A DNA stretch of 64,000 nt, from the NCBI RefSeq assembly GCF_009930815.1, contig NZ_CP022222.1:248001-312000 (forward strand), in the 5' to 3' direction. The first letter of the stretch is position 1, and each line of letters begins with the position of its first letter. This stretch comes from Bradyrhizobium sp. CCBAU 051011 (GTDB taxonomy: Bacteria; Pseudomonadota; Alphaproteobacteria; Rhizobiales; Xanthobacteraceae). Under the pieces are notes generated by a model. It searched no databases and was not told where the DNA came from. It saw nothing but the letters and a program-made list of their open reading frames with translations. The position numbers were made by a program, and so were the translations under genes. Positions 12,963 to 53,908 of this stretch are shown piece by piece.

Positions 12963-13862
12963 TTACTGCTTCGGCGCCGCTGCCGCCGGCGGGTGGCCGG
13001 ACGGATTGGCAAAGAAGCGGAAGAACTCGGAATCCGGCCGCAGCAGGAAGCGGGTGTCGTTGGAGCGGAGCCCGGTTTCATAGGCCGACATCGAACGATA
13101 GAAGGCAAAGAAATCCGGATCCCGGCCGTAAGCCTCGGCGAACAGGCGGTTGCGCTCGGCGTCGCCCACGCCGCGCGTCTGCTCGGCGGTCGAATTGGCT
13201 TCGGCGACGATAACGGTCGCCTCGCGGTCGGCCTTCGAGCGGATTTCCTGCGACTTCTGGCCGCCCTGGGCGCGGAACTCCTGGGCCTCGCGCTCGCGTT
13301 CGGTCTGCATTCGCTTGTAGACCGCCTGGCTGTTCTGCTCCGGCAGGTCGGCGCGGCGGATACGCACGTCGACCACCTGGATTCCGTACTGGTCGGCCTC
13401 CCGGTCGAGCTGGTCGCGGATGCGCGTCATCAGGCCCTCGCGCTCGTCGCGCACCACATTGATGAAGGTGACCTCGCCCAGCACGCGGCGCAATGCCGCG
13501 TTCAACAGCGTGGTGAGCTGGATGTTGGCGGCCTGGATCGAGCCGATGCTCTGATAGAAGCGCAGCGGGTTCTTGATCCGGTAGCGGGCGAAGGCGTCGA
13601 CCACGAGCCGTTTCTGGTCGGAAGCGATGACTTCCTGGGACGGATTTTCCAGATCGAGAATGCGCTTGTCGATGCTGATGACGGTGTCGATGAACGGCGC
13701 CTTGAAGTTCAGGCCCGGCTCGGACACGACGTCGACCGGCCGGCCGAGCCGTACCACGAGCGCCTGTTCGGTCTGCGACACCGTGAAGATCGAGCTGTAG
13801 CCCACGATCACGAGGGCGAACAGCAGGATCAGGCTGACAATACCTGCAACCGGAGACCTCAT
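12963..13862 (-). CDS. hflC: FtsH protease modulator HflC
   Basis: 299 residues. One N-terminal membrane helix (about 4-26) is followed by a periplasmic SPFH/band-7 domain and a coiled-coil region rich in Glu/Arg/Gln (about 180-240). HflC forms a large ring with HflK around FtsH and tunes its degradation of membrane proteins. Its ATG overlaps the hflK stop by four bases (ATGA), consistent with equimolar synthesis. The C-terminal tail is Pro/Ala-rich (HPPAAAAPKQ). Confidence 0.95.
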   Translation of the reverse strand: MRSPVAGIVSLILLFALVIVGYSSIFTVSQTEQALVVRLGRPVDVVSEPGLNFKAPFIDTVISIDKRILDLENPSQEVIASDQKRLVVDAFARYRIKNPLRFYQSIGSIQAANIQLTTLLNAALRRVLGEVTFINVVRDEREGLMTRIRDQLDREADQYGIQVVDVRIRRADLPEQNSQAVYKRMQTEREREAQEFRAQGGQKSQEIRSKADREATVIVAEANSTAEQTRGVGDAERNRLFAEAYGRDPDFFAFYRSMSAYETGLRSNDTRFLLRPDSEFFRFFANPSGHPPAAAAPKQ

Positions 13863-37935: not shown

Positions 37936-38326
37936 GCAAGAGACCGCCGCAGGCGCGGCTCACATAATCGCCACTCTTCTTTTTCTTCTTCAGCCAGGCA
38001 TGGTATTCGGCATTCAGCTTTTCAAACTCCGCGGCAAACTCCGGGACTTCCCTCCGGAAAATATCAATGGCCGGCTTGAGCTCCTTATACATGTGACATA
38101 TCGGCGTAGCTTCGAAGATCTTGTCCTTGGTTCTGACACCGCGTATCAGAATCGCGATCGATTCCCATGTGACGCACAGGAGCTGAGCTGCCGCTTTCCC
38201 CTCCTTCGTCGCTCCAGGGGCGACCAAGGCGTCCGTACCTAGGTCGCGGCGCATCACTTCCGCCGCGTAGTAGTTGGAGTCGCTTCGCATTCTTTCGATA
38301 CCAAGCAGAAGCTCATTCTGATCCAT
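37919..38326 (-). CDS. Uncharacterised protein (135 aa)
   Basis: Begins MDQNELLLGIERMRSDSNYY and is mostly helical in composition, with a lysine run (WLKKKKKSGDY) near the C-terminus. No membrane segment or known domain is recognised. It overlaps the following TPR gene by 17 bases. Codon use resembles the flanking genes but is slightly less GC-biased. Confidence 0.65.
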   Translation of the reverse strand: MDQNELLLGIERMRSDSNYYAAEVMRRDLGTDALVAPGATKEGKAAAQLLCVTWESIAILIRGVRTKDKIFEATPICHMYKELKPAIDIFRREVPEFAAEFEKLNAEYHAWLKKKKKSGDYVSRACGGLLHARFG

Positions 38327-38402
38327 GGTGCCCCTCCAAATTGCTTTTGTACAAATGCCAAGCGCGAACGAAGCCTATCCCGACATCTCCAGCTTCACAA
38401 GC

Positions 38403-41400: not shown

Positions 41401-41744
41401 TCCTCAGGGTCGCGGTCCGCTATGATCTTGAAGGACCCGACGATGTCGGCAAATAGCACGGTGACTTGTTTGCGTTCGCCTTCGAGATCGCGTTTCGTCG
41501 TCATTATCCTGACGGCGAGATGCTTTGGGGTATAGTTGTCAGGTGACAGGAAGCGGTTTACCGCTCGATGTTCTTCGTCAAGTCCAATTGGGTGGGCGCA
41601 TTGGGAACAGAATTTGGCTCCCGGTGACACCAAGCTACCGCAATTGGGACAGCCGCGCTCAAAAGGAGCGGCACATTGCTCGCAGAACTTCGCTTCAGGC
41701 CGATTGTCGTGTTCGCACCTGGGGCACTTCATCTGAACCGTCAA
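38403..41744 (-). CDS. Class III adenylate/guanylate cyclase with zinc ribbons, AAA ATPase and TPR domains
   Basis: 1113 residues (TTG 41744; ATG 41732 is also possible). Domains in order: two zinc ribbons (CPRC...CEQC, CPNC...CSQC, residues 8-50); a class III cyclase domain (about 90-260: VLFADIVGSF, MGDGIMALFG, RVGINSGEIVV, YTVVGQTAHLASRM) with metal aspartates present; a STAND/AAA NTPase with P-loop GEPGMGKS near 320; then about 500 residues of TPR helices. No membrane segment. This architecture makes a soluble signal-integrating cyclase. Input and nucleotide product are unknown. The opposite-strand neighbours give no clue. Confidence 0.93.
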   Translation of the reverse strand: MTVQMKCPRCEHDNRPEAKFCEQCAAPFERGCPNCGSLVSPGAKFCSQCAHPIGLDEEHRAVNRFLSPDNYTPKHLAVRIMTTKRDLEGERKQVTVLFADIVGSFKIIADRDPEEAQKLLDPVLDLMLEAVHHYEGMVNRVMGDGIMALFGAPLAHEDHAVRACYAALRMQQTIARYAEEVRRVHGAPITVRVGINSGEIVVSSINNDLYMDYTVVGQTAHLASRMEQMAMPGSVLAAADTIRLVEGYVEAKSLGEMTIKGLAHPVEVFEITEGGFERTKLQAAASRGLTPFVGRELEMQQLTKALDHARGGHGQVVAVVGEPGMGKSRLVHEFVHSSRTEDCLVLETNSASYGHAASYLPVIELLRHYYFKISQRDNAKSIREKVTEKILALDPSLQDVIPPLLDLLDALDSGHPFQSLDPLQHRQHTYQAITRLLLRENHVQPVVAVFEDLHWNDSLTLGLLNEIVVNARDARLLLLVTYRPEFSDGWKGRPNYRNLRLEPLPSESLTTLLHTLLGSDPALENLKNFVLDRAGGNPFFVEELVRTLVDRKVLEGSRQNYRMVKPISGNEIPPTVQAVLAARIDALAKAEKRLLQEAAVIGHDVPLSLLKEISSLPDSELRGVLNSLQTAEFVFPTQLFPDLQFSFKHALTHDVAYGGLRSERRRDIHQRVVVAIEKVYAGRIGEQVERLADHALRGGLREKAVTYLRQAGTKAADREAYPEAVILFEQALDALAGLPQSKEAIQKAIDIRFDIRNVLQPLGDRDRIAARLNEAEELANRIGDRQRNGWVQSYLTEQFWMLGRYRESIEAGERALAVAEADLPLRVVTNLPLGLAHHTRGDYKKAREHFGWNAAHLEGGLASQRFGMFVLPAAFSRSFIAWGLADTGQFSEAFNVGEDALRIAENANHPFTCGYAHLGLGVVALRQGNLRRALRSFERALAAGAFADSPVGFAYVALHFGYALALAGRANEGIPILEQSIEVAESKGFVARHSLRLAYVSEAYLSLGRESDALKAATRALELARKHEERANEAYSLRLLGEVDLYRGNLSDAKHWLTQGVTLAEELGMRPLEANCHKGLANAFDLSHQKSNAEHHRSISNSLAEAMEMRFWG

Positions 41745-41925
41745 GCTAAGCGGTTAGTACGCGGCGCAATATCCTACTTCGCCAAACCGCCTACAACAAC
41801 CGGGAAGCGCAATCGCTTGCGCATGCCGACCATGCTTCGACTGGTCGCGACGCTTGTCGAGCCTACAGGCCGCTACTGTAGTCCCGTGGACGTTGAGAGG
41901 CAACATAGATGCTATCTTAACGGAT

Positions 41926-42903
41926 TTACCCCCGCCGCTTCCAACGTTCGGCATTGACCGCGCCGGCCGGCACCTCTCCCGCAACAATCGCCTCGACCTG
42001 CTTCACCGTCTCCAGCGCCTGGCTCTCGATCGCCGGCGGCGTCAGGCCGCCGATGTGTGGCGTGGCGATGACGTTCGGCAGTTTGGCGAGCTCCGGCGAC
42101 GGCATCTGGTCCAGCGCGCGGCCGACATCCATCGCGGCGCCGGCGATGCGGTTGTCGCGCAATGCCGCCGCCAACGCCGCCTCGTCGACGAGATTGCCGC
42201 GCGACAGATTGATGAAGAAGGCATGCGGCTGCATGCGCGCCAGCGCCGCCTGCCCGATCAGGTTTTCGGTTTGCTCGTTGGCTATCGCGAGGCAGACGAC
42301 GTAGTCGGCGCGCGCCAGCAGATCGTCGAGCGGCACATGCCGGATGTCGGCGTCGCTGACGGCGGCATAAGGATCGGCGACCATGATCTCCATGCCCAGC
42401 ACCTTGGCGATGTCGGCGAGGTAACGGCCGATGCTGCCATAGCCGATGATGCCGAGCCGGCTGCCGGCCAGTTGCCGGCCCATGATGATTTCGGGTTTGC
42501 GGGCGGCATGATAGTCGGCGGTGGCGCGTGATACGCCGCGCGACAGGTCGACCATGAGGCCGAGCGCAAGCTCGGCGACCGACTGGACGAAGCCGGGTCC
42601 GGCCCGCGTGACGAGGACACCGGCCACGGAAGCGGCGTCGACATCGATATTGCGGATATCAACGGCACAACGGACGAAGGCGCGCAGTTTTGGAAGTTTT
42701 GGAAATATCTCGCCCGGTCCCGCGGTGAGGCGGTCGGCGACGATGATATCGACGTCATCAGCCGCCGCGATCAGGCCGGCGGCGTCGAGCGCATCGTTTG
42801 CTTCATGCAGCTTCACCTGCGCGACGGCCTGCAGCCCGGCAAGGCTGCGCGCACCGTAATACTGGGCGCGAGACTGCGGCGTATGGGTCAACAGCACTTT
42901 CAA
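41926..42903 (-). CDS. D-isomer-specific 2-hydroxyacid dehydrogenase family protein
   Basis: 325 residues. The NAD-binding motif GYGSIG lies in SRLGIIGYGSIGRYLADIAKVLG, the catalytic Arg is in INLSRGNLVDE, and the catalytic His is in ATPHIGGLTP. The Glu expected between them is in the region around residue 260. It oxidises or reduces a 2-hydroxy/2-keto acid; phosphoglycerate, glyoxylate or another substrate cannot be told apart here. It lies between two cyclase genes on the same strand with gaps of 100-180 bases. Confidence 0.9.
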   Translation of the reverse strand: MKVLLTHTPQSRAQYYGARSLAGLQAVAQVKLHEANDALDAAGLIAAADDVDIIVADRLTAGPGEIFPKLPKLRAFVRCAVDIRNIDVDAASVAGVLVTRAGPGFVQSVAELALGLMVDLSRGVSRATADYHAARKPEIIMGRQLAGSRLGIIGYGSIGRYLADIAKVLGMEIMVADPYAAVSDADIRHVPLDDLLARADYVVCLAIANEQTENLIGQAALARMQPHAFFINLSRGNLVDEAALAAALRDNRIAGAAMDVGRALDQMPSPELAKLPNVIATPHIGGLTPPAIESQALETVKQVEAIVAGEVPAGAVNAERWKRRG

Positions 42904-43004: not shown

Positions 43005-45050
43005 CTACTTGCTCCGCGCGACCGTCGTGCCGTCCCAATCCTCGCCGGTGGGATTTTCAACCTGCTGGCGGCAGCGTTCGATCATCAGGGATGAGGCGGC
43101 ATCGTCCTTGCGGACCTCCAGCGCCTTCTCGAAGCCATCGATCGCGGCCATGAAGTCGCCCGCGCGCCAGGCAGCGAGGCCGGCCTCATAGGAAGTTACC
43201 CAATCGAGCTTGCCGTCAAACTCACCGGCCATCCCAAGCAATTCATAGATCTGCAGTCCACCTGCGCGGCCATAGACCGCCAGCCGGTCGAGCTCGCGGA
43301 CCACGACGCTCTTCCCCGCGAGCCTTCGCGTCTCGGGTCCGATGATGATCGTGGAGCCGTACGTCTTGTTGGTGCTTTCCAGGCGGCTCGCGATATTCAC
43401 GGCATCGCCGATCACGGTGTAGTTCAGCCGCACTTCCGACCCGATATTGCCGACCAGCATGTCGCCGGAATTGATGCCTATGCGGATCCTGACGCTCTGG
43501 CCGTGGTCATCGACGAGACCGGCCTCCTCCACCGCAAGCCGGCACGCCAGCGCGGCGCGGCAGCAATCGACGGCGTGATCGGGATTGGGCGATGGCGCAC
43601 CCCAGAACGCCATCACGGCATCGCCGATGAATTTGTCGATGGTGCCGTTCTGATTTTGAATCTGCGCCGAAACGCAGTCGAAATAGCGCGACAGCAGTGG
43701 AATGATGCGGTCGCCGAGCCGCTCCGACATGCCGGTGAAGCCGGCGAGATCGATGAACATCACGCTCATCGGCCGCACCGCGCCGCCCAGCCGCGCGCCG
43801 TTGCCGTCGCTGATCAGGCGCTTGACGAGGTCGGCGGGAATGTATTTGCGAAACGCCGCCAGTCCCTGCGCCATGTCGCCGATCGCGCCCGAAAGATTGC
43901 CGATCTCGGTCAATCGCGACGGATGCCGTTGCACCTTGTCGAGATCGAAGCGCTCGACATGCCTGATCTCGTTGACCACCTTGATCAGGGGCGCTGCGAT
44001 CAGACGCTGGGCGAGCCAGGCCGACAATAGCCCGGCAAAGACGATCAGCACCGCAAGGCCGATCAGCAAGTTCCGGATCGTCATCTGGACCGGTCCGAGA
44101 AATTCCGATTCCGGCACCACGGTCACCAGCGACCAGCCTGGAAAGGAAATTGGCGTGATCACCGCCTGATAGGCCTTGCCGTCCCGCGTCACCGTCGTAT
44201 TGAACGGCTGCCCTTCGCCGGGTTCGTAGGCGCTGCCGGCGTTTCGGATTGCCTCGACCGCGACCGGAAACAGCGGATGATCGGTCTTCAGCGCCACCAG
44301 TTCGCTGGCATCGGGATCGGGCGAGGCCACCACCTTGCCGTCCCGTTCGAGAATGAAGGCGCCTGCCGATTTGCCGACCGTGAGCTGCGACAGGAAATTC
44401 GAGACGCGGGTCAGCTCGATGATGATGGCGACGACGCCGGCCGGCTTCTTGTCGATCTCGACCGGCGCCGAGAAAGCCGCCGCCAGCCGTTCGCCGCGCG
44501 GATGCGTCGTCAGCGTCGACCAGTGTTCGTCATTGGTCTCCCTGACGACCCGAAACCATTGCTGCTCCGTCAGGGAATAGTCGGTGTCTTCGAACCAGCT
44601 TGCCTTGAGCTTCAGATCGTCGCCGACGAATTCGTAGCGATTGATGCGCATGTTGCGGTCGGGCGTGATCTCGAGCATCTCGATGACGTTGTTGCCGAGT
44701 TTGTGCCCGGCAAAGAACGATCCGTCCGGCCATCCGAACGCTACCCAGGAGATGGTCGGCTGCGACAGCAATTGCGACCGGAATACGACTTCGCGTTTCC
44801 GGGCATCGCGTGGGTCGAACACTTTTTCGGCCAGCAGCGTCCGCACCGCCATCATCGACGACCGCGCCTCCGTCGTGACCGACTGCAATTCGTCGCCCAC
44901 TGCCGAAACGATCTGGTCGTTGATGGTGTTGGCGAGCGTCTGGCTGACCTGGTGAGCCGTGCGCCACCACAACAAATGCACGCCGACGGCGCTGACGACG
45001 ATGGACGTCAGCACGAGGGCTGAAATGGCGGTGCGGATGCCGAGGCGCAT
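43005..45050 (-). CDS. Membrane class III nucleotidyl cyclase with Cache sensor and HAMP
   Basis: 681 residues. TM1 (about 8-30), a periplasmic double-Cache-like sensor (about 35-325), TM2 (about 330-350), HAMP (about 350-410), then a class III cyclase domain (SVMFIDLAGFTGMSERLGDR, GDAVMAFWGAP, RIRIGINSGDMLVGNIG, YTVIGDAVNIASRLE). A C-terminal extension of about 80 residues looks TPR-like. Metal and transition-state residues appear present. It probably couples a periplasmic ligand to cAMP or cGMP. It is divergent from ccdA across about 200 bases. Confidence 0.93.
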   Translation of the reverse strand: MRLGIRTAISALVLTSIVVSAVGVHLLWWRTAHQVSQTLANTINDQIVSAVGDELQSVTTEARSSMMAVRTLLAEKVFDPRDARKREVVFRSQLLSQPTISWVAFGWPDGSFFAGHKLGNNVIEMLEITPDRNMRINRYEFVGDDLKLKASWFEDTDYSLTEQQWFRVVRETNDEHWSTLTTHPRGERLAAAFSAPVEIDKKPAGVVAIIIELTRVSNFLSQLTVGKSAGAFILERDGKVVASPDPDASELVALKTDHPLFPVAVEAIRNAGSAYEPGEGQPFNTTVTRDGKAYQAVITPISFPGWSLVTVVPESEFLGPVQMTIRNLLIGLAVLIVFAGLLSAWLAQRLIAAPLIKVVNEIRHVERFDLDKVQRHPSRLTEIGNLSGAIGDMAQGLAAFRKYIPADLVKRLISDGNGARLGGAVRPMSVMFIDLAGFTGMSERLGDRIIPLLSRYFDCVSAQIQNQNGTIDKFIGDAVMAFWGAPSPNPDHAVDCCRAALACRLAVEEAGLVDDHGQSVRIRIGINSGDMLVGNIGSEVRLNYTVIGDAVNIASRLESTNKTYGSTIIIGPETRRLAGKSVVVRELDRLAVYGRAGGLQIYELLGMAGEFDGKLDWVTSYEAGLAAWRAGDFMAAIDGFEKALEVRKDDAASSLMIERCRQQVENPTGEDWDGTTVARSK

Positions 45051-45248
45051 GCGGGGGTCCTGTTCGCGGGCCGTTACCGGCCTTACGAGACCATACCAGC
45101 GCCTGTTTCAGCCGCGAGGCCATTTCGGCGCCCTGGACACGGCTCTGTGACCGCAGTTGAGCCGTAATGACGACGAAACTTCGCGATTGGCTGTTCCGTA
45201 CATGTCAGGACGGCGCTATGCCTTGTGGCAATTCTCGAAGGTCATGCA

Positions 45249-45980
45249 ATGCACGATGTTTCCATCCCGGCGGCCCTGATTGCCGGTCTCGTCAGCTTCC
45301 TGTCTCCTTGCGTTCTGCCGCTGGTGCCGCCCTATCTGATCTATCTCACCGGCGCGACCATCGAGCATGTCGCCAATGACGGACCGACGCAGGCCTCCAA
45401 GCGCGCGGTGATGGCTTCGGCGCTGATGTTCGTGCTTGGCTTTTCCACCGTGTTCGTGGCGCTCGGCGCCAGCGCCTCGCTGATCGGCAGCCTGATCCGC
45501 GCCTGGTCGGCAGAGCTTTCGATCCTGGCCGGCATCGTGATCATCATCATGGGGCTGCATTTCCTCGGCCTGACCCGGATCGGGCTGCTGATGCGCGAGG
45601 GCCGGATGCAGATGCCGAAGCCGGTCGGGCTGTGGGGCGCCTATGCCATGGGGCTCGCCTTTGCGTTCGGCTGGACGCCCTGCATCGGCCCCATTCTGGC
45701 GGCGATCCTGTCGATCGCAGCGGCCGAGGCCACCGTCGCCAAGGGCGCGGGCCTGCTGGCGGTCTATTCCGCCGGGCTTGGAATCCCGTTCCTGCTGGCG
45801 GCCTTCATGATCGAACAGTTCTCCTCCCTTTTTGCGCGGATGAAGCGGCATCTCGGCAAGGTCGAGCAGGCCATGGGCGTCCTGATGGTCATCACCGGCA
45901 TCGGCTTCCTGACCGGCGCCGTTTCCAGCATCAGCATCTGGCTGCTCGAGACTTTCCCGGCCCTGCAAAATTTCGGCTGA
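45249..45980 (+). CDS. ccdA: Cytochrome c biogenesis/thiol-electron transfer protein CcdA
   Basis: 243 residues from ATG 45249 (AAGG seven bases upstream; a GTG at 45225 is also in frame). Six membrane helices, with the redox cysteines in SFLSPCVLPLVPPYL and GWTPCIGPILAAIL. CcdA passes electrons from cytoplasmic thioredoxin to periplasmic thiol proteins. Here it opens the run doxX-DUF255-bufferin genes, so its partner may be the exported CxxC protein at 46672 rather than only cytochrome c apoproteins. Confidence 0.93.
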   Translation: MHDVSIPAALIAGLVSFLSPCVLPLVPPYLIYLTGATIEHVANDGPTQASKRAVMASALMFVLGFSTVFVALGASASLIGSLIRAWSAELSILAGIVIIIMGLHFLGLTRIGLLMREGRMQMPKPVGLWGAYAMGLAFAFGWTPCIGPILAAILSIAAAEATVAKGAGLLAVYSAGLGIPFLLAAFMIEQFSSLFARMKRHLGKVEQAMGVLMVITGIGFLTGAVSSISIWLLETFPALQNFG

Positions 45981-45986
45981 GGCTCC

Positions 45987-46012
45987 GTAACAAGCGGGCG
46001 GTCGCCTGCGAA
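45987..46012 (+). promoter_or_regulatory. ECF-type promoter upstream of doxX
   Basis: GTAACA (45987-45992), a 16-base spacer and CGAA (46009-46012). The same -35 and spacing precede both bufferin precursor genes. The pattern matches the GTAACC/CGAA promoters of the Caulobacter sigma-F ECF regulon as I recall it. It lies about 106 bases before the doxX ATG. Confidence 0.65.
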
Positions 46013-46117
46013 CCTGCTGTCGGAGCCGGATTTCGCGCGGCACTTTCGAGCGCGCCGGATTGACGGAGACTGCAGGCCGGCGGCCCCGTCACGACAAATA
46101 CTTAGAGGGGAGGTCGC

Positions 46118-46597
46118 ATGAATTTTATCATCAATCTTCTTGTCCTGTTACCCGCTCAGATCGCGTCACATTTTTCCTGGGCCGGTCCGCTGATCATGCG
46201 GCTGATCGTCGGTTACACCTTCATGCTGGCCGGCTGGGGCAAGCTCAACAACCTGACGCAGGTGACCGAAAACTTTATCGGCTGGGGCATACCGTTTCCT
46301 GGGATACTCACCCCCTTCGTGGCTGGCGTCGAATTTTTCGGCGGCGCGATGCTGATCGTCGGCCTGTTCACACGCATTCCGGCCGCAATGCTGGCGGTGG
46401 TCATGGTCGTCGCCATCAGGTCGGCAAAATGGGGCGATGTCGATTCACTGGAGACGCTGCTCGGCTTCGAGGAGGCGACCTACTTCGCCGCCTTCATGTG
46501 GCTCGCCATCGCAGGTCCCGGCGCCGCCTCTCTGGATCGGCTGCTGGTGAATGCCAGCGGTCACCGCGACCCGTCGAAGACGCTCACAATGCCGTGA
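46118..46597 (+). CDS. DoxX-family membrane protein (HvfD/GigT-like)
   Basis: 159 residues with four membrane helices. LIVGYTFMLAGWGKLNNL and FVAGVEFFGGAMLIVGLFTR are DoxX features. GGGGAGG lies four bases before the ATG, a very strong site. In bufferin-like loci (gig/hvf operons) a DoxX protein accompanies the MNIO enzyme, which fits its position 2.3 kb upstream of the precursor genes. It may take part in membrane thiol or quinone chemistry; its biochemical role is not settled. Confidence 0.9.
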   Translation: MNFIINLLVLLPAQIASHFSWAGPLIMRLIVGYTFMLAGWGKLNNLTQVTENFIGWGIPFPGILTPFVAGVEFFGGAMLIVGLFTRIPAAMLAVVMVVAIRSAKWGDVDSLETLLGFEEATYFAAFMWLAIAGPGAASLDRLLVNASGHRDPSKTLTMP

Positions 46598-46671
46598 CAT
46601 CGGCGAAAGGCTGAGCCCGGATCCTGCCGCCTGCGTATCTCGAAAAAACGCCAGCGCTTCCGGGAGCCATC

Positions 46672-48456
46672 ATGAAATTCGTCCGCATTGTCGCCTTCGT
46701 CCTCGCCGCCTTTGCCGCCTCTCCGTCGCTCGCCGCGGACGGGCCGAAATGGAGCGAATGGAGCGGCGATTTGTTCGCTCGCGCGCAGGCCGAACAGCGT
46801 TTCGTCATCCTCGATCTCGAGGCGGTGTGGTGCCACTGGTGCCATGTGATGGAGAAGACGACCTACGCCGATCCCAAGGTTAGGGAATTACTGGCGGAAA
46901 AGTATCTGCCGGTGCGGGTCGACCAGGACGCCAATCCAGACCTGTCGAGCCGCTATGGCGACTGGGGATGGCCGGCGACCATCGTGTTCGGCCCTGATGG
47001 CACCGAGATCGCCAAGATCAGGGGATACATCGAGCCGGAACGAATGCAGGCGCTGCTCAAGGCGATCATCGATGATCCCACGCCGGGGCCGTCGGTCGGC
47101 GAAGCCTTTGAGGTGAAGCCATCCGGCTCCGCCTTCCTCGACAAGGAGCAGCGCGCCGCGCTGACAAAGAATGTCGACGAATCCTATGAAGAAAAGCTCG
47201 GCGGCTGGGGCGAGAACCAGAAATACATCGACGCCGACAGCTTGGATCTGGCGATCACCCGCGCCGAGGCCGGCGACACCATTGCGGCCAAGCGTGCCCG
47301 GCAGACGCTGGATGCCGCCATTGCGCTGATCGATCCGGTCTGGGGCGGCGTATACCAGTATTCCGAAGGCGGCTCCTGGACCCGCGTGCATTTCGAAAAG
47401 ATCATGTCGTTCCAGGCGCAGTATCTCAGGCAATACAGCCAGGCCTACGCGCTGTGGAAGGATCCGAAATACCTTGCCGCCGCACGCAATATCGAACGCT
47501 ATCTCGCGCAATTTCTGACGAGCCCCGAGGGTGCGTTCTATGTCAGCCAGGACGCCGATCTCGATCACGATACCGACGGTCATAAATACTACGCGCTGTC
47601 GGACCGCGAGCGCCGCAAGCTCGGCATGCCGCGCATCGACAAGAACCTGTACGCACGCGAAAACGGCTGGGCGATCTCGGGGCTTTCGGCTTATTACAAC
47701 GTCACCAACGACGCCAAGGCGCTGGCGATCGCCGAGCGCGCGGCGAAATGGGTGATCGAAAACCGTGCACTGCCGGAAGGCGGCTTCCGCCATGGCGAAA
47801 AGGATCGCGGCGGGCCGTTCATCGGCGACACGCTGGCGATGGGCCAGGCCTTCCTCGATCTCTATGCTGCCACGGGAAATCGCGACTGGCTCACATCAGC
47901 CGCGAAGGCTGGCGATTTCGTCGCAACCTTCCGGGACGAGGCCGGCGGCTTCGTGACCTCGAAGACCGCGGAAGGCAAGACCGGCGTGCTCGCCAAGCCT
48001 GCGAAGCTGATCGAAGACCAGGTGCAGGTCGCAAGGTTCATGAACCTGCTCAACCGCTACTTCGGCGTTGATGCCTATCGCGAGCAGGCCGCACACGCGA
48101 TGCGTTATCTTGCCAGCGCCTCGGCCGGGATGATGCGTCCCATGCCCGGCGTTCTGCTCGCCGACGAAGAACTCGCGGTGGAGCCGACCCACATGACGAT
48201 CGTCGGACACAAGGACGACGCCCGCGCGAAAAGCCTGCATGCCCTGGCCCGCGCGCTGCCGGCCCGCTACAAGCGCCTGGAATGGCTTGATCCGCGCGAG
48301 GGTAAGCTGCCCAACCCGGACGTGGAGTATCCCGATCTCGGCGAACCCGCGGCCTTCGCCTGCAGCAACCGGATCTGCTCGTTTCCGTCCTTCAATGCCG
48401 AGGAGTTGCGCGCAACGGTCGCGCAGATGGCGAAGCTGAAGCCGGCGCGCGGATAG
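46672..48456 (+). CDS. Exported thioredoxin-like DUF255 protein (YyaL/SPATA20-like)
   Basis: 594 residues. The signal peptide is residues 1-22 (cleavage SLA-AD). A thioredoxin fold follows with C54-HW-C57 in AVWCHWCHVMEKTTY, then an alpha/alpha-barrel glycosidase-like region (about 180-590; SFQAQYLRQYSQAYAL, ENGWAISGLSAYY). Most relatives are cytoplasmic, so export is notable. It follows doxX by 74 bases and precedes the bufferin genes, suggesting a periplasmic thiol oxidoreductase that could be recharged by CcdA. Substrate unknown. Confidence 0.88.
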   Translation: MKFVRIVAFVLAAFAASPSLAADGPKWSEWSGDLFARAQAEQRFVILDLEAVWCHWCHVMEKTTYADPKVRELLAEKYLPVRVDQDANPDLSSRYGDWGWPATIVFGPDGTEIAKIRGYIEPERMQALLKAIIDDPTPGPSVGEAFEVKPSGSAFLDKEQRAALTKNVDESYEEKLGGWGENQKYIDADSLDLAITRAEAGDTIAAKRARQTLDAAIALIDPVWGGVYQYSEGGSWTRVHFEKIMSFQAQYLRQYSQAYALWKDPKYLAAARNIERYLAQFLTSPEGAFYVSQDADLDHDTDGHKYYALSDRERRKLGMPRIDKNLYARENGWAISGLSAYYNVTNDAKALAIAERAAKWVIENRALPEGGFRHGEKDRGGPFIGDTLAMGQAFLDLYAATGNRDWLTSAAKAGDFVATFRDEAGGFVTSKTAEGKTGVLAKPAKLIEDQVQVARFMNLLNRYFGVDAYREQAAHAMRYLASASAGMMRPMPGVLLADEELAVEPTHMTIVGHKDDARAKSLHALARALPARYKRLEWLDPREGKLPNPDVEYPDLGEPAAFACSNRICSFPSFNAEELRATVAQMAKLKPARG

Positions 48457-48662
48457 GCCGACCGAATTCCATTGTGCAATGCAACTCAGCGCGCGTCACG
48501 CCTAATCTCGCGCATCACGCCTAATCTGTTGAAGCGCGGCGCTTTCTGCGCGGCGCGCTCGCAGAGAGCGCAGCGCGCCAACGAAATACTCTCAGGCTGC
48601 TCGGGGTTAGAGATCCACGGAATGTCCAACCGCAAAAAAAGAAAATTTTCTTTTGAAACTCT
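48457..48662. other. Intergenic region with tandem and palindromic tracts before bufA1
   Basis: Contains a direct repeat (TCACGCCTAATCT, twice near 48497-48527), GC-rich self-complementary sequence (48535-48580), and an A/T palindrome AAAAGAAAATTTTCTTTT (48637-48654) ending eight bases before the -35 element of the bufA1 promoter. No gene is recognised. The tract may act as an UP-like element and/or end the upstream transcript. Confidence 0.5.
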
Positions 48663-48688
48663 GTAACCAAATCGCCTGATGCCCCGTA
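48663..48688 (+). promoter_or_regulatory. ECF-type promoter of the first bufferin gene
   Basis: GTAACC (48663-48668), exactly 16 bases, then CGTA (48685-48688, followed by GC). It is the best match of the three sites to the GTAACC-N16-CG(A/T)A pattern. It leaves a 5' leader of about 165 bases that contains an inverted pair TCACGGAC (48713-48720) / GTCCGTGA (48788-48795). Confidence 0.75.
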
Positions 48689-48855
48689 GCTGGTTTTCGG
48701 ATGCGCACTCGGTCACGGACGCTTGACGGTTTCCAGCAAGCAACCCGCGACCCGATTGCCGTCCGTCACATCGCTTGCGTTGTGAGGGTCCGTGATCGGG
48801 CGATCAGCGGATGCTTGCGGCGTGTTGTCTTCAAACAATGATCGAGGAGATCGTC

Positions 48856-49119
48856 ATGAAGTTGAATTCCAAATCCGGTGCGACGCTCGCCGCTGCCGCC
48901 GCCACGCTGTTCCTCGCCGGCTCGGTGGTGTCGACGGTGTCGACGCCTGCGAACGCGGCCCAGGGCAAGTGCATGGCCGGCAATGCCTGCAAGGGCCAGA
49001 GCGCCTGCAAGGGCTCGGCCAACGCCTGCAAGGGCCAGAACGCCTGCAAGGGCACCGGTTTCTCGATGACCTCCGAGAAGGCTTGCGCCGCCCAGGGCGC
49101 CAAGTTCGTCAAGGGTTGA
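48856..49119 (+). CDS. bufA: Bufferin-type metallophore precursor (BufA2-like), copy 1
   Basis: 87 residues from ATG 48856 (GAGGAGA five bases upstream). A signal peptide covers about 1-34 (TLAAAAATLFLAGS..., cleavage ANA-AQ). The mature part is about 53 residues with six Cys, five in ACKG/KCMAG-type repeats (GNACKGQSACKG, ANACKGQNACKG). Such precursors are RiPPs whose cysteines are converted by the MNIO enzyme BufB so that the peptide binds copper in the periplasm. It is tandem with a second copy and has its own ECF-type promoter and a downstream hairpin. Confidence 0.88.
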   Translation: MKLNSKSGATLAAAAATLFLAGSVVSTVSTPANAAQGKCMAGNACKGQSACKGSANACKGQNACKGTGFSMTSEKACAAQGAKFVKG

Positions 49120-49139
49120 TCGAACGGACCAGATACCAG

Positions 49140-49164
49140 GAGGGCTCGGCGCTGCCGGGCCCTC
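49140..49164 (+). terminator. Hairpin after bufferin copy 1
   Basis: GAGGGC (49140-49145) pairs with GCCCTC (49159-49164), with an inner CGGC/GCCG stem. It is followed by ATTGTTTC, a weak U tract. It lies 20 bases after the stop codon and could terminate or stabilise the short precursor message. Confidence 0.55.
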
Positions 49165-49205
49165 ATTGTTTCGGCCCCGCGGCTAAAATAAAATCGGCCC
49201 CGGGT

Positions 49206-49231
49206 GTAACAAAATTCAAACCCGCTGCGTA
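49206..49231 (+). promoter_or_regulatory. ECF-type promoter of the second bufferin gene
   Basis: GTAACA (49206-49211), 16 bases, CGTA (49228-49231, followed by GC). Spacing and -10 are identical to the first bufferin promoter. It lies about 82 bases before the second precursor ATG and would also drive bufB, bufC and the two hydrolase genes. Confidence 0.7.
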
Positions 49232-49312
49232 GCTCTCTCCGGGTGCCGTTTGTCGGCTGGAGCTGTCGCTGCTTGCGGGCGGTGCACCCTCACATTTCCT
49301 ATGGAGGATACA

Positions 49313-49570
49313 ATGAAGATGACTCCCAAGTCCGGCGCCGTACTGGCCGCAGCCGCTGCTACTCTGTTCCTGGCCGGCACCACCGTGTCGACCGTGACCT
49401 ACGCTGCCGGCGAGGGCAAGTGCGTCGGCGCCAATGCCTGCAAGGGCCAGAGCGCCTGCAAGGGCAGCGCAAACGCCTGCAAGGGCCAGAACGCCTGCAA
49501 GGGTCAGGGCTTCTCGGCCATGACCAAGGAAAAGTGCGACGCCGCCAAGGGTAAGTTCATGCCGTCCTAG
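49313..49570 (+). CDS. bufA: Bufferin-type metallophore precursor (BufA2-like), copy 2
   Basis: 85 residues from ATG 49313 (GGAGG five bases upstream). The signal peptide (TLFLAGTTVSTVTYA) is close to that of copy 1. The mature segment GEGKCVGANACKG... carries six Cys, and its central block (NACKGQSACKGSANACKGQ) is identical to copy 1, while the EGKC start and the C-terminus (TKEKCDAAKGKFMPS) differ. The EGKC element recalls the EGKCG motif of other bufferins. It is followed by a strong hairpin and then bufB. Confidence 0.88.
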   Translation: MKMTPKSGAVLAAAAATLFLAGTTVSTVTYAAGEGKCVGANACKGQSACKGSANACKGQNACKGQGFSAMTKEKCDAAKGKFMPS

Positions 49571-49584
49571 GTCATGATCCCCGT

Positions 49585-49610
49585 CGAGGCCCGGTGTAGG
49601 CCGGGCCTCG
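49585..49610 (+). terminator. Perfect 10-bp hairpin between the precursor gene and bufB
   Basis: CGAGGCCCGG (49585-49594) and CCGGGCCTCG (49601-49610) are exact complements around a six-base loop. There is no U tract after it. It is better read as a partial terminator or 3' stabiliser giving more precursor than enzyme mRNA than as a full stop. Confidence 0.6.
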
Positions 49611-49671
49611 CATCCATGCTAGGTTGAAAGACACGCCGCCCCGTTTGGCTGCCCGTTCGAGCGGAGACGAG

Positions 49672-50577
49672 ATGAACGTCGCAAGCAGATTGCCAGACAC
49701 TTCTGCGGCCGCGCTTGCAGACGGTCCGGCGACATCGGCCAAGCCGCCCTTCCTCGGCTTCGGCCTCGGCCTGCGCCACCAGCATTACGACGAAATTCTC
49801 AGCGGTAATCCGCCGATCGACTGGTTCGAGGTCATCAGCGAAAACTACATGCTGCCCGGCGGCCAGCCGCTGCGCACGCTGGACCGGATCTGCGAACGCT
49901 ATCCTGTGGTGATGCACGGCGTGTCGATGTCGATCGCCTCCACCGCACCGCCGAATTTCGAATATCTGCAAGGCTTGAAGGATCTCGCCAAGCGCGTCGA
50001 ACCGAAATGGGTGTCGGACCATCTGTGCTGGACCGGCGTGCACGGCAAGAACCTGCATGATCTCCTGCCGATTCCCTACACCAAGGAAGCGCTCGATCAC
50101 GTCGTCAGCCGCGTGCAACTGGTGCAGGATTTTCTTGGCCGCGCCATCGTGCTCGAAAACGTCTCGACCTACGTGCAGTTCAACAATTCCGAAATGACGG
50201 AATGGGAATTTTTGTCCGAATTGTCGCGCCGCTCCGGATGCTGGCTGCTGTTCGACGTCAACAACGTCTATGTCAGCGCCTTCAACCACGGCTATGATCC
50301 CATGACCTTCCTCAACGGCATTCCGGCGGATCGGGTGGTGCAGTTTCACATGGCCGGCCACAGCCATATGGGCACCCATATCATCGACACCCACGACCAT
50401 CCGGTGTGCGAGGACGTCTGGGATCTCTATGCCGCGGCGCTGAAACGCTTCGGCCGGGTCTCGACCATGATCGAGCGCGACGACAACATTCCGCCGCTCG
50501 ACGAACTTGTGCGCGAGGTTGTCAGGACCCGCAAAATGGCCGAGCAGATATTGCCGGCAGGCAGCCGCGCGGTATGA
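49672..50577 (+). CDS. bufB: MNIO-family (DUF692) bufferin-modifying oxidase BufB
   Basis: 301 residues from ATG 49672 (GGAG five bases upstream; a TTG at 49624 extends the frame). The TIM-barrel DUF692 fold carries a multinuclear iron site; visible ligand motifs are VMHGVSMS, SDHLCW, LENVSTY, DVNNVYVSAFNHG, FHMAGHS, DTHDHPV and IERDDNIP. The family oxidises precursor cysteines to thiooxazole/oxazolone-type groups. It is cytoplasmic, so it acts before precursor export. The stop overlaps bufC by four bases. Confidence 0.93.
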   Translation: MNVASRLPDTSAAALADGPATSAKPPFLGFGLGLRHQHYDEILSGNPPIDWFEVISENYMLPGGQPLRTLDRICERYPVVMHGVSMSIASTAPPNFEYLQGLKDLAKRVEPKWVSDHLCWTGVHGKNLHDLLPIPYTKEALDHVVSRVQLVQDFLGRAIVLENVSTYVQFNNSEMTEWEFLSELSRRSGCWLLFDVNNVYVSAFNHGYDPMTFLNGIPADRVVQFHMAGHSHMGTHIIDTHDHPVCEDVWDLYAAALKRFGRVSTMIERDDNIPPLDELVREVVRTRKMAEQILPAGSRAV

Positions 50578-51359
50578 GCGATTTCGCCCGACAGCAGGCC
50601 GAATTCCAGCGCGGCATCCTCGATGGCGACGATGCGGTGCTGGCAGATATCCTCGACAGCCCGCGGGAGAAACGCGAGGCGCTGTTCGGGGTCTATCGCT
50701 ACGCCTATGGCTCGCGGCTGGTCGAGGCCATGCGCAATGACCACGAGTTGCTGCATCTTTATCTCGGCGACGAAATGTTCGACGAGATGGGGCACGCTTA
50801 CGTCAAGGCGCGCCCGTCCGAGCACCCGAACCTGCGCTGGTTCTCGCAAGGCCTGCCGGCGTTTTTGAAATCGACCGCGCCCTACGCCGAGCATCCCGAA
50901 TTGTCCGATCTCGCCGCGCTGGAAAAGGCGCTCAACGACGCCTTCGACGCCGCGGAAGGCAGGGTCGTCGAGCTGAGCGACATGGCGGGCTTTGCGCCCG
51001 AAGCATGGTCGGGCCTCAGATTCCAGCCGCATCCAAGTGCATCCAGGCTAGACCTCGCGACCAACGCATCTGCGATCTGGCTCGCGCTCAAGAACGAGGA
51101 AACGCCGCCCGACGCGGTCGGACTGGAGCGACCTGCGCATCTCCTGATCTGGCGCCAGGACGTCACGCCGATGTTCCGCGAGCTTTCGGCGGAAGAGGCG
51201 ATGATGTGGGATGAGGCCAAGAACGGTATTCCATTCGGCGTGCTCTGCGAAATGCTCGCGACCTATGACGATCCCGACAGCGCGGCGGGCCGCGGCGCGG
51301 GCTATCTGCACGGCTGGATCACGGCGGGACTTTTGACGGATGTTTCCGTCGGCTCATGA
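50574..51359 (+). CDS. bufC: DUF2063 partner protein BufC
   Basis: 261 residues starting MSDFARQQAEFQRGIL. The N-terminal DUF2063 domain (about 1-95: FGVYRYAYGSRLVEAMRNDHELLHLYLG, PNLRWFSQGLPAFL) is the part that partners MNIO enzymes and presents the precursor. The C-terminal half has helix-rich sequence with an RPAHLLIWRQD motif common in this family. Its ATG overlaps the bufB stop, and its own stop overlaps the next ATG, both as ATGA, so the genes are translationally coupled. Confidence 0.92.
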   Translation: MSDFARQQAEFQRGILDGDDAVLADILDSPREKREALFGVYRYAYGSRLVEAMRNDHELLHLYLGDEMFDEMGHAYVKARPSEHPNLRWFSQGLPAFLKSTAPYAEHPELSDLAALEKALNDAFDAAEGRVVELSDMAGFAPEAWSGLRFQPHPSASRLDLATNASAIWLALKNEETPPDAVGLERPAHLLIWRQDVTPMFRELSAEEAMMWDEAKNGIPFGVLCEMLATYDDPDSAAGRGAGYLHGWITAGLLTDVSVGS

Positions 51360-52165
51360 AGAGGAGCGCTCGGCGAATGGGAAGTGACACCGATCGCCAT
51401 TTCATCGAGCGCATGCATTGGGACGATGTCGCGCGGCGCATCGGTGATGGCGCGGTGGCGATATTGCCGATTGGCGCTGCCGCCAAGCAGCACGGCTTCC
51501 ACCTCCCCCTCAATACCGATCGCATTCAGGCCGAATGGCTCGCAGCCAGGATGGCGGAAAAAATCGACGCTCTGGTCTGGCCGACGCTGACCTATGGCCA
51601 TTATCCCGCCTTCACCGACTATGCCGGCAGCAGCAGCCTGTCGATTTCAACCTTCGAGGCCTTTGTACGCGAAATTGCAGGCCAGATTCTTGGCAGCGGC
51701 TGCCCAAAGCTGCTCGTGCTCAATACCGGGATCAGCACCCTGGCCCCTGTCGATCGCGCCCTCGGGCGCCTCGACGGCGAACGGATCAGGCATTTATGGA
51801 TCCATGAGGGTCCGCGCTATCCGCGCGTGGCGAGGCAATTGGCCGAGCAAGGCCATGGCAGCCATGCGGACGAGTTGGAAACCTCGCTGATGCTGGCGAT
51901 GGCGCCGCATCTCGTTGACATGGCGCGCGCCGAAGCCAGCCCCGCTTTGATCCAGGAGACGCCGGGCGCATTGACCCCGTCTGATCCGAATTCGCCGAAC
52001 TACAGCCGCTCCGGCTGCTATGGCGATCCGACGCGGGCGACAGCGGCCAAGGGCGAAGCCTTGCTCGCCGCCATCCTTGACGACCTCCACGAACAGGCCG
52101 CCGCGTTCATGGCGCAAGGGCCCGGCGAGCACCATTCGGCCGGGGCCCAAGCCGTGCTGCGATGA
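51356..52165 (+). CDS. Creatininase-family hydrolase in the bufferin operon
   Basis: 269 residues from ATG 51356 (ATGA overlap with bufC); ATG 51377 with GAGGAG upstream is an alternative. The family metal motif normally reads EQHGPHLPL...D; here it is GAAAKQHGFHLPLNTD, so Lys replaces the first metal-binding Glu while His and Asp remain. The later ligand block is SHADELETS (His and Glu kept). The usual NGHGGN loop is replaced by NTGIS. Creatininase relatives include MftE, the peptidase of mycofactocin maturation, so precursor or product cleavage is a possible role. Activity is uncertain. Confidence 0.85.
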   Translation: MKRSARRMGSDTDRHFIERMHWDDVARRIGDGAVAILPIGAAAKQHGFHLPLNTDRIQAEWLAARMAEKIDALVWPTLTYGHYPAFTDYAGSSSLSISTFEAFVREIAGQILGSGCPKLLVLNTGISTLAPVDRALGRLDGERIRHLWIHEGPRYPRVARQLAEQGHGSHADELETSLMLAMAPHLVDMARAEASPALIQETPGALTPSDPNSPNYSRSGCYGDPTRATAAKGEALLAAILDDLHEQAAAFMAQGPGEHHSAGAQAVLR

Positions 52166-53151
52166 AGGCCGACGGCGCTCTTCGCTGGAGCGTTGCGGCC
52201 GCTGTCATCGCCGCGATGCTGGCAGGCACCGTTTCGTTCCGCGCCGCCGCGCAATCGGAATATATGCGCGGCGACCGCATGCCGTACGACGCGTTCGAGC
52301 GGCTGCCCCGGACCGACCTCGAGATAGGCGGCGGCACCATCCGTGTCGCGTTCGCGCCGGGCGACATGGCGCTACCGAGGGAAAAACTCCTCGACTGGAT
52401 CAGGATGTCGGCCCGGGCCGTCTCGACCTATTACGGGCGTTTTCCCGTCAACTCGCTGCGGCTGCTGCTCGTGCCCGTCGATGGCGGGCGCATTCGCGGC
52501 GGCACGACCTGGGGCTATCGCGGCGCCGCCATTCGCATTCCGCTCGGCCGCGATTCCACCGAGGACGTGCTGCGGCGTGACTGGGTGATGGTGCACGAGA
52601 TGGTGCATACCGCCCTGCCCGACATGCCCGCCCGCTACGCGTGGCTATCGGAGGGTCTCGCCGTCTATGTCGAGCCGGTCGCGCGGGTGCAGGCCGGCGA
52701 CCTCTCCGCGCAGGAAATCTGGCAGGCGATGATGCGCGACATGCCGAAGGGCCTGCCGCAGGCCGGCGATGAGGGCCTCGACAACACTCCCACCTGGGGA
52801 CGGAAATATTGGGGCGGCGCGATGTTCTGCCTGCTCGCCGATATCGAAATCCGCAAAGTGACGGGTAATCGCCTCGGCCTGCAGGACGCCATGCGCGGCG
52901 TGCTCGCCGCCGGCGGCAATCACGAGCAGAGCTGGCCGATCGAGCGCATTCTTGCAACAGCCGACAAGGCCGTCGGCGTCGACGTGCTGACGCGTCTGCA
53001 CAACGAGATGGGACCGAAGCCGGTGACGCCGGACCTTGCTGCGCTCTGGCGCGATCTCGGATTGAGGCGGATTGGCGAAGATATTGAATTCGACGACACC
53101 GCACCACTCGCCGCGATCCGCAAGGCGATCACCGCGCCGCACCGACCATAA
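52162..53151 (+). CDS. Exported HExxH metallopeptidase (gluzincin-like)
   Basis: 329 residues starting at an ATG that overlaps the creatininase-like stop (ATGA). The signal peptide is about 1-31 (VAAAVIAAMLAGTVSF; cleavage near AAA-QS). The zinc site is H145-E-M-V-H149, with WLSEGLAVY providing the third ligand E165, the layout of MA-clan peptidases. It is otherwise unlike well-known families. As the last gene of the coupled bufferin operon and a periplasmic protein, it could trim exported bufferins or release bound metal. This is inference. Confidence 0.82.
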   Translation: MKADGALRWSVAAAVIAAMLAGTVSFRAAAQSEYMRGDRMPYDAFERLPRTDLEIGGGTIRVAFAPGDMALPREKLLDWIRMSARAVSTYYGRFPVNSLRLLLVPVDGGRIRGGTTWGYRGAAIRIPLGRDSTEDVLRRDWVMVHEMVHTALPDMPARYAWLSEGLAVYVEPVARVQAGDLSAQEIWQAMMRDMPKGLPQAGDEGLDNTPTWGRKYWGGAMFCLLADIEIRKVTGNRLGLQDAMRGVLAAGGNHEQSWPIERILATADKAVGVDVLTRLHNEMGPKPVTPDLAALWRDLGLRRIGEDIEFDDTAPLAAIRKAITAPHRP

Positions 53152-53209
53152 TGCATTTGAGAAGGATGATCCGGCCGCCGATCGCCGCCGGATCACCTTG
53201 AGCGGAGTA

Positions 53210-53908
53210 TCAGAACCGATAACTGGCGCCGACGCGCACGAGGTGCATCTCGTTGCGGAATTCAGTTCGCGTGCGGTCCCGGCTGGACAGCGTCACGCTG
53301 CCATAATCGGCGTAGAGATATTCGCCGCGCCCGACGAAATGCTTGGTAAAGGCATACTCGATGCCGGCGCCCGCGATCAGCCCGGCCTTGACCTGTTCGT
53401 CCCAGATCATTTCCTGCACGGTGTCGCAACCCTTCTGCACCGTATAGCGATAGCCATTGCCGATGCTGGCCACGCCGACACCGACGGCGCCGTACGCCAG
53501 CAGGCGGTCGAACGCGTAGCCGGCACGCAGGCGAGCCGCACCGAACGCGCCGAAGCTCGATAGCAAGGCGCTGTCGCCAAAGATCAGTTCGTCCCGTGAC
53601 GAGGAGGACTTGCCCCACTCGAACTCGCCGCCGATCACGAACCGGTTGGCAAACTGGTAGTTGTAGCCGCCATAGACGCCCACCGCGAAGCCGCTCGCCT
53701 GCCCCTCCGCATGACGACACGCACCGTTTCGGCAGTAGTGGGCAGCCCATGCCGCATACCCGCCACCGCCATAGATGCCGGCATAAAATCCGGTCCAGTT
53801 GTAGTGAGGCGAAGGCAGGTCCGGAACACGGATTTCGGCAGCCTTCGCCGCCGGACCTGCCAGTAAAAAGCCGCAAGCGGCAACAATCCCCCAGGAAACA
53901 AAACGCAT
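53210..53908 (-). CDS. Outer-membrane beta-barrel protein (Omp25/31-like)
   Basis: 232 residues from ATG 53908 (GAGG upstream; TTG 53911 adjoins it). The signal peptide ends near AKA-AEI. NWTGFYAGIYGGGGYAAW at the mature start and the aromatic C-terminal VRVGASYRF are typical of rhizobial 8-strand opacity-type porins. Four Cys occur (HYCRNGACRH and GCDTVQ), unusual for a barrel. It faces the bufferin operon convergently with a 58-base gap. Confidence 0.88.
   Translation of the reverse strand: MRFVSWGIVAACGFLLAGPAAKAAEIRVPDLPSPHYNWTGFYAGIYGGGGYAAWAAHYCRNGACRHAEGQASGFAVGVYGGYNYQFANRFVIGGEFEWGKSSSSRDELIFGDSALLSSFGAFGAARLRAGYAFDRLLAYGAVGVGVASIGNGYRYTVQKGCDTVQEMIWDEQVKAGLIAGAGIEYAFTKHFVGRGEYLYADYGSVTLSSRDRTRTEFRNEMHLVRVGASYRF

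Follow-up and report, generated by a model that had tools for sequence, protein, structure and literature searches.

The locus and its bufferin core

We describe a bufferin-type gene locus in Bradyrhizobium sp. CCBAU 051011. The DNA analyzed (the window) is a stretch of 64,000 nucleotides, positions 248,001 to 312,000 of contig NZ_CP022222.1. Its nine genes all share the + strand and span 45249 to 53151 of the window. We find that its core is of a known kind, bufferin-2, and that a conserved accessory module of redox and peptidase genes accompanies it. The labels dsbHGH, crn, glu, bufA1 (first precursor copy), and bufA2 (second copy) were coined in this analysis. “BufA2” with a capital B denotes the NCBIfam family, while lower-case bufA2 is the second precursor gene. 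“Exported” refers to N-terminal sequences judged by eye, and ECF16 to a group of extracytoplasmic function (ECF) sigma factors. The features are:

45249 to 45980, + strand: ccdA, CcdA/DsbD-type membrane electron carrier with Cys 21 and Cys 145 (PF02683)
45987 to 46011, + strand: ECF16-type promoter motif 5' of doxX, GTAAC-N17-CGA (motif found at 40/40 doxX starts)
46118 to 46597, + strand: doxX, DoxX-family membrane protein (PF07681)
46672 to 48456, + strand: dsbHGH, exported protein with a DUF255 thioredoxin domain (CHWC), an alpha/alpha toroid, and a C-terminal Cys pair
48663 to 48687, + strand: ECF16-type promoter motif 5' of bufA1, GTAAC-N17-CGT
48856 to 49119, + strand: bufA1, BufA2-family precursor of 87 amino acids with 6 Cys (NF050166)
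49140 to 49164, + strand: terminator-like hairpin 3' of bufA1 (fold z -2.79)
49206 to 49230, + strand: ECF16-type promoter motif 5' of bufA2
49313 to 49570, + strand: bufA2, BufA2-family precursor of 85 amino acids with 6 Cys (NF050166)
49585 to 49610, + strand: weak 11-bp hairpin between bufA2 and bufB, no U-run (z -1.58), a possible attenuator or 3' stabilizer
49672 to 50577, + strand: bufB, MNIO (DUF692) bufferin maturase (NF050167, PF05114)
50574 to 51359, + strand: bufC, DUF2063 partner protein (PF09836)
51356 to 52165, + strand: crn, creatininase-like protein without the canonical metal-ligand motifs (PF02633)
52162 to 53151, + strand: glu, exported HExxH...E metallopeptidase, a stand-alone M1/M61-like catalytic domain

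All of the genes named in an earlier sequence-only reading of this DNA lie where that reading placed them, on the + strand, and their families are now assigned by Pfam and NCBIfam matches. That reading described two hydrolase genes joined by ATGA overlaps. Both junctions (bufC/crn and crn/glu) are there, but 4-base ATGA overlaps occur at three junctions in total, bufB/bufC included (crn start taken as 51356). The other intergenic gaps are 137 bp (ccdA-doxX), 74 bp (doxX-dsbHGH), 399 bp (dsbHGH-bufA1), and 193 bp (bufA1-bufA2). The dsbHGH-bufA1 spacer also contains a 19-bp sequence in head-to-tail repeat (48490-48527).

Judged by its sequences, the core is a bufferin-2, or captophorin, locus of the Cys-Lys group. 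The products of bufA1 and bufA2 score 74.1 and 82.5 bits, respectively, against the BufA2 model NF050166 (cut-off 60). Each has six cysteines, four of them within ACKG motifs, and each begins, by eye, with a basic start, a hydrophobic stretch, and an AxA-like site. BufB scores 387 bits against NF050167 (cut-off 310) and 378 bits against PF05114, and is alignable to 3bww and MbnB. BufC matches DUF2063 (PF09836, 62 bits). Curated models thus uphold the bufferin-type identity that the sequence-only reading had proposed for the precursors and enzymes. A search of the host genome returned two BufA2 matches in all, both at this locus, and bufB is the sole PF05114 match.

The six-cysteine ACKG precursors, BufB, the DUF2063 partner, and the gene order A-B-C are all shared with the known BufA2 family (NF050166, with BufB NF050167). 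Tandem precursors have already been described for bufferin clusters, as have six cysteines for Buf2 precursors (PMC12452194), and the Cys-Lys group of captophorins was named in a study that tested an NACKG variant (PMC13097082). Some BufA2 genes elsewhere appear to be stand-alone precursors: five survey loci (L211, L216, L241, L242, and L248) have BufA2 genes with no bufB in the fetched stretch.

The precursors could instead be unmodified, or modified for another metal, and so form a cysteine-rich metallothionein-like system. The authors of the bufferin study did not identify the bufferin-2 modifications and offer preliminary data only (PMC12452194). We regard this alternative as very unlikely, since BufB and the precursors pass curated models, and since 5-thiooxazole is formed by related PME1-type systems, which as a rule bind copper (PMC13097082). 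By analogy, the bufferin-2 precursors studied here would bind copper through cysteine-derived 5-thiooxazoles made by BufB and BufC, and the locus probably encodes a periplasmic copper-buffering system.

The two precursors may represent old lineages. In a precursor tree of 38 two-copy loci, first and second copies separate by one change. None of 500 label shuffles gave a value as low, and all 200 bootstrap trees (100%) likewise needed one change. The branch dividing the copies has mixed support (21/99), and the alignment has few columns. Because first and second copies fall on opposite sides of one branch, the tree suggests that the duplication predates the spread of the precursors across these Bradyrhizobium and Afipia loci, and that both copies have been retained.

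The redox and downstream genes

What the locus adds to known bufferin-2 systems is a DUF255-thioredoxin/toroid protein, an M1/M61-like peptidase, a creatininase-like gene, and ccdA. Additional conserved genes were reported only in extremely low proportions at bufferin clusters (PMC12452194). No paper in the literature library searched joins DUF692 and creatininase, and none of the titles and abstract openings that the searches returned describes the accessory gene set.

The redox genes are ccdA, doxX, and dsbHGH. As the sequence-only reading had noted, CcdA, DoxX, and an exported CxxC protein are encoded upstream on the same strand. The ccdA product matches the CcdA-type DsbD_TM family (PF02683, 55.6 bits). 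The DoxX protein matches PF07681 (73.1 bits) and scores 66.8 bits against the HvfX model NF050144, under its cut-off of 80. The dsbHGH product matches Thioredox_DsbH (PF03190, 76.8 bits, cut-off 27) and contains CHWC; a WCxxC motif is present in 50/50 distinct homologues. It fails the DsbH equivalog NF043050 (12.8 bits versus a cut-off of 190). It is 20% identical to the DUF255 protein Bab1_2064 (PDB 7tkv), and, unlike that protein, bears an N-terminal signal-like sequence (by eye) and is tied to BufA2.

The crn product belongs to the creatininase family by its PF02633 match (164 bits, cut-off 31), scores below both equivalog cut-offs, and departs from that family in its metal-ligand motifs. 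The canonical creatininase ligands are E34, H120, and E122. The alignment has K in place of E34 and TG-IST in place of the GHYEN loop. Among 49 distinct linked crn copies, [AS]KxHG occurs in all 49 and xGxST in 48, the remaining one being a cut piece, while EQHG and NGHG/GHYEN-like motifs occur in none. With the canonical metal-ligand motifs replaced, a role for crn as an MftE-like maturation peptidase is not supported. The crn protein may act in the cytoplasm or be a binding protein.

The glu product resembles M61 and M1 metallopeptidases in its catalytic-domain fold and its HExxH...E signature (HEMVH...SEG). Unlike them, it is a single domain, and the GxMEN motif, the substrate-anchoring motif of M1 aminopeptidases, is found in 0/37 sequences. 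Searches of Pfam to E 1 and of NCBIfam to E 0.1 gave no match for the window protein, and those homologues that match Pfam M1/M61 reach only 12-19 bits, under the cut-offs. A sequence search against solved structures returned nothing useful. Thus, where the sequence-only reading had seen two hydrolases forming a protease set, the fold and signature bear out the peptidase half for glu, and the missing ligand motifs speak against a peptidase role for crn.

Variants of glu were also seen. In one 517-amino acid protein (P0017), a shortened crn is fused in frame to glu; the fusion may be a simple deletion and was not taken as evidence. A metagenome-assembled genome (MAG) of Hyphomicrobiales (D3_Bin_17; L113 / L050) has a second glu homologue in a 653-amino acid open reading frame (ORF), which may be fused to another domain, and no other gene of the set occurs in the fetched stretch around it.

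Linkage and co-occurrence with BufA2

The whole gene set is kept in one order in close relatives. In a family sample of 198 genomes, glu occurs in 8. BufB matches occur in 70; those of at least 80% identity are confined to the 8 glu genomes, and the other 62 reach at most 48%. In all 8 genomes, glu and bufB lie on one contig within ~3 kb, and the complete set is present in one order (8/8: our own window and 7/7 fetched relatives). Two of the relatives are MAGs with three precursor copies; in one of these two (L049), dsbHGH appears split into two pieces. G016, one of the 8, carries a further glu homologue (52%), and none of the remaining set genes lies near it in 18 kb.

In some relatives, the cyclase, outer-membrane, and oxidase genes that flank the set were not found. 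The gene block itself is thus the kept unit. The cyclase gene (43005-45050, - strand) is divergent to ccdA in many Bradyrhizobium loci; it is presumably a class III nucleotide-cyclase-like gene, going by its motif. Farther from the locus, at 38001-42000, long ORFs are few and G+C content falls to 0.57-0.58, against ~0.63 over most of the window; this may be acquired DNA.

A glu profile search of named genomes extended this comparison to the best 80 of 211 loci, several of which coincide with the family-relative loci. The complete set is found in the same order in 31 of these 80. The closest loci from named genomes belong to Bradyrhizobium; in a Bradyrhizobium lablabi locus (L053), for example, bufB is 97% identical. 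Where glu is at least 60% identical, buf genes lie within 9 kb in 52/54 loci, and both misses are on cut contigs. Leaving out 14 loci cut upstream, 40 such loci have 9 kb present upstream, and bufA, bufB, and bufC are found in all 40. Linkage of the precursor and enzyme genes, on which the sequence-only reading had staked its case, is therefore conserved among related genomes. Five close relatives (L081, L084, L074, L088, and L068) lack dsbHGH, and some of them crn, with the remaining genes kept; these are natural losses. Near one bufferin block (L093, Bradyrhizobium sp. BTAi1) there is also a second MNIO/DUF2063 pair, ~2 kb away on the opposite strand (~12300-13800).

The same genes are linked in other orders in more distant taxa. 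Three of the four linked loci with glu below 60% identity are from Acidobacteriota, with the order changed. Two Granulicella loci (L117 and L126) read glu-bufA-bufB-...-dsbHGH, with a DUF2063 gene at the bufC place in L117. The Granulicella precursor reaches 31 bits, under the BufA2 cut-off; its BufB, at 356 bits, is over the cut-off. A gp1 acidobacterium MAG has dsbHGH-bufA-bufB-bufC-doxX-glu, a gammaproteobacterial Rudaea MAG bufA-bufB-bufC-dsbHGH-glu, and two Methylobacterium loci dsbHGH-bufA-bufB-bufC-glu. On a 3-kb MAG contig labeled Novosphingobium (L079), the order is bufC-crn-glu-ccdA-doxX, which puts ccdA and doxX downstream of glu.

A survey from the precursor side yields a similar association. 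BufA2 is above cut-off in 21/385 genomes of the class and 26/398 of the phylum (own genome counted). We surveyed 44 BufA2 places, leaving out our own genome, three known relatives, and second tandem copies (L246 is the same place as L111). Genes were scored at 50 bits or more in stretches of up to 20 kb, some shorter at contig ends, here and in the control. The survey found dsbHGH at 9 places, glu at 7, and crn at 4. At least one of them is present at 12, in varied arrangements (for example, L220, L222, and L224), and bufB is absent from 5/44 stretches. As a control we took 40 further BufB loci, 38-47% identical: those from 39 of the remaining 62 genomes of the family, together with the second MNIO of G016. 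There, dsbHGH, glu, and crn were found in 0/40, and ccdA in 2. The module thus goes with the BufA2 type, although most of the BufA2 places surveyed have none of it nearby.

This association extends to whole genomes, even where the genes are unlinked. Searching apparently the same draw of 385 genomes (E 1e-60 or better, at most three candidates scored per genome), we find dsbHGH in 12 genomes, spanning seven families by their labels, and each of the 12 is also one of the 21 BufA2 genomes. Without our own genome, 11/11 dsbHGH genomes have BufA2, against 0.57 expected (hypergeometric 2.9e-16). The order survey detected glu in 22/397 genomes. BufA2 is above cut-off in 14/16 glu genomes versus 1/17 glu-less genomes (Fisher 2e-6). 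The 16 are the 18 newly examined genomes minus two (G231 and G450) with weak glu (E above 1e-5) and sub-cut-off BufA2. The 17 were picked from glu-less genomes that the family and order searches for glu chanced to list, skipping those seen in the phylum survey. An early reading of the ~50%-identity homologues as peptidases unrelated to bufferins was overturned by this genome-wide co-occurrence. The accessory set is not accidental; linkage, reshuffled linkage, and co-occurrence all tie the redox and peptidase genes to the system, in line with the sequence-only reading.

Regulation and proposed mechanism

Three ECF16-type promoter motifs lie within the locus. The published EcfF consensus of B. 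japonicum is GTAAC(g,a)-N14-15-(c,t)CG(t,a), and that of the ECF16 group tGTAACc-N16-CGAA (PMC3420878). Having first spotted the motif by eye with a Caulobacter motif in mind, we searched the published consensus, relaxed to GTAAC-N16/17-CG(T/A), within 250 bp upstream of gene starts. Besides all 40 doxX starts, it precedes bufA1 in 41/43 and bufA2 in 43/47 cases. By comparison, it precedes ccdA in 1/40, dsbHGH in 1/36, bufB in 1/47, bufC in 0/53, crn in 0/40, and glu in 0/44. Shuffled upstream sequences gave 0.2-1.2 matches per gene (doxX 0.25, bufA1 0.30, bufA2 0.65). In the survey loci, the motif precedes BufA2 ORFs in 2/5 cases from the same order and 12/28 from other Alphaproteobacteria.

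Little of the leader sequence between motif and start is conserved, which argues that motif conservation is not mere relatedness. Across 34 loci each, 18/237 columns are invariant for bufA1 and 3/160 for bufA2, with almost no common fold. A conserved leader RNA was rejected, since the leaders are little conserved and a search of 45000-53300 against Rfam (E up to 0.1) came back empty.

Several transcription units probably make up the locus, rather than the single extended operon of the sequence-only reading, because three conserved ECF16 motifs lie inside it and a terminator-like hairpin follows bufA1; the wide gaps point the same way. A scan for terminator-like hairpins found fewer sites overall than in shuffles.

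Similar control is known from other Alphaproteobacteria. In Caulobacter, the DUF692 operons CC3254-3257 and CC2907-2905 are under ECF16 control by SigF-NrsF (PMC3511200), and DUF692 operons are among the RpoE7 targets of Sinorhizobium meliloti (PMC6180224). What these systems share with our locus is DUF692/DUF2063 genes (and DoxX, in CC3257) with an ECF16 promoter of the same type. However, the Caulobacter precursors are listed as DUF2282 and that of S. meliloti as a hypothetical membrane protein, whereas BufA2 genes carry the motif here; moreover, this locus has three motifs within it, and sigma and anti-sigma genes elsewhere in the genome. Sigma genes are reported in Buf1 but not Buf2 clusters (PMC12452194). 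The B. japonicum EcfF-OsrA regulon shares the promoter consensus; Table 3 of that study names no bufferin genes, and several of its entries are “hypothetical protein” (PMC3420878). Control at our locus is predicted.

The genome has one NrsF-type match (PF06532, 192 bits; 99 bits against the equivalog NF042994, under its cut-off of 300), 3' of the sigma gene beside it. This sigma gene carries its own ECF16 motif (L295:5650) and lies ~4.6 Mb from the locus. A narrow ECF pattern has three exact matches in the genome, and its backward control has five. The third was rejected as a chance match, being inside an ORF on the opposite strand; by eye, the surrounding genes resemble a secretion- or conjugation-type cluster.

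The accessory proteins could maintain the periplasmic sensor side by repairing or degrading copper- or oxidant-damaged proteins, with bufferins as one arm of a wider copper-damage response. The response of NrsF/OsrA-type anti-sigma factors depends on conserved cysteines (PMC3420878, PMC3511200), and the single NrsF match adjoins a sigma factor. This explanation gives a less direct account of the co-occurrence with BufA2, and other BufB loci of the same family manage without these genes. We consider it quite unlikely.

We consider it reasonably probable that the locus joins a bufferin-2 (captophorin, Cys-Lys) core to a conserved accessory module of redox and proteolytic helpers, under ECF16 control. 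Several observations weigh against this view. Thirty-two of the 44 surveyed BufA2 loci have no dsbHGH, glu, or crn nearby, and doxX and ccdA were each found at 1/44 with these queries. Some of the 40 close loci lack accessory genes (ccdA found in 38, doxX in 37, dsbHGH in 34, and crn in 32), and glu at 45-58% identity is usually unlinked (a buf gene within 9 kb in 4/26, one only a distant bufC). Two genomes (G427, from the phylum survey, and G205) have BufA2 with no glu match, and one (G384) has glu with no BufA2 match. Relatedness among the genomes also makes the counts non-independent, and the probabilities overstate independence. As for the promoters, the reversed control pattern precedes bufB in 8/47 cases (0-2 at other genes), the motif also precedes 5/34 starts of the neighboring cyclase gene, and none of 12 BufA2 ORFs from other classes is preceded by it.

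These absences, some even within the close set, and the often unlinked peptidase fit a different explanation: the core makes bufferin-2, while dsbHGH, glu, crn, and ccdA are co-regulated general envelope-stress functions with no action on the peptides. Such functions belong to ECF16 regulons elsewhere: in B. japonicum, EcfF governs methionine sulfoxide reductases as well as a gene pair for a CcdA-like protein and a periplasmic thioredoxin (PMC3420878). However, the accessory genes co-occur with BufA2 genome-wide, are absent from all of the control BufB loci, and are re-linked in new orders in Acidobacteriota and the gammaproteobacterial MAG. Furthermore, dsbHGH, crn, and glu almost never carry the motif themselves, although co-transcription with doxX or bufA2 is possible. 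We therefore regard general envelope-stress functions as an unlikely explanation, yet one to be taken seriously.

The sequences show the gene content and families, the linkage and co-occurrence, the conserved promoter motifs, and two separate precursor lineages. For the ECF16-driven bufferin-2 locus with helpers, we infer the chemistry of modification, the metal, export, the transcription units, the substrates of the redox proteins and the peptidase, and the role of crn as part of one model. Periplasmic stress would free the ECF16 sigma factor encoded elsewhere beside the NrsF-type anti-sigma factor. The sigma factor would drive three units: doxX-dsbHGH, bufA1, and bufA2-bufB-bufC-crn-glu. In the cytoplasm, BufB and BufC would oxidize the central ACKG cysteines of both precursors, most likely to 5-thiooxazoles, and the modified peptides would be exported by Sec and bind copper in the periplasm. 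Electrons would pass from the cytoplasm through CcdA to the exported thioredoxin-toroid protein, which would keep the remaining cysteines or thiol-bearing heterocycles of the peptides reduced. The M1/M61-like peptidase would trim or turn over the exported peptides. That CcdA feeds dsbHGH and that glu acts on the exported peptide is suggested by the anatomy of the locus; the substrates of glu and dsbHGH are the weakest links.

A more specific version is possible, and we propose it only tentatively. The locus might define a bufferin-2 subclass with a dedicated periplasmic maturation and maintenance apparatus, comprising M1/M61-type trimming and a CcdA-fed thioredoxin-toroid protein that selects the peptide and keeps its metal-binding sulfurs reduced. 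For EGKCG pathways, it was left open if captophorin products act intact or after cleavage by proteases (PMC13097082), and one related cluster was noted without a protease nearby (PMC12538549). If this version is true, these bufferins would be a class of ribosomally synthesized and post-translationally modified peptides finished after Sec export, not before, and spanning Pseudomonadota and Acidobacteriota.

The locus connects bufferin-2 genes with an ECF16 sigma factor predicted to act in trans. Its two precursor lineages, kept side by side, make a division of labor between precursors testable in one laboratory strain. The peptidase and the thioredoxin-toroid protein track BufA2 across genomes, and are thus named candidates for post-export processing.

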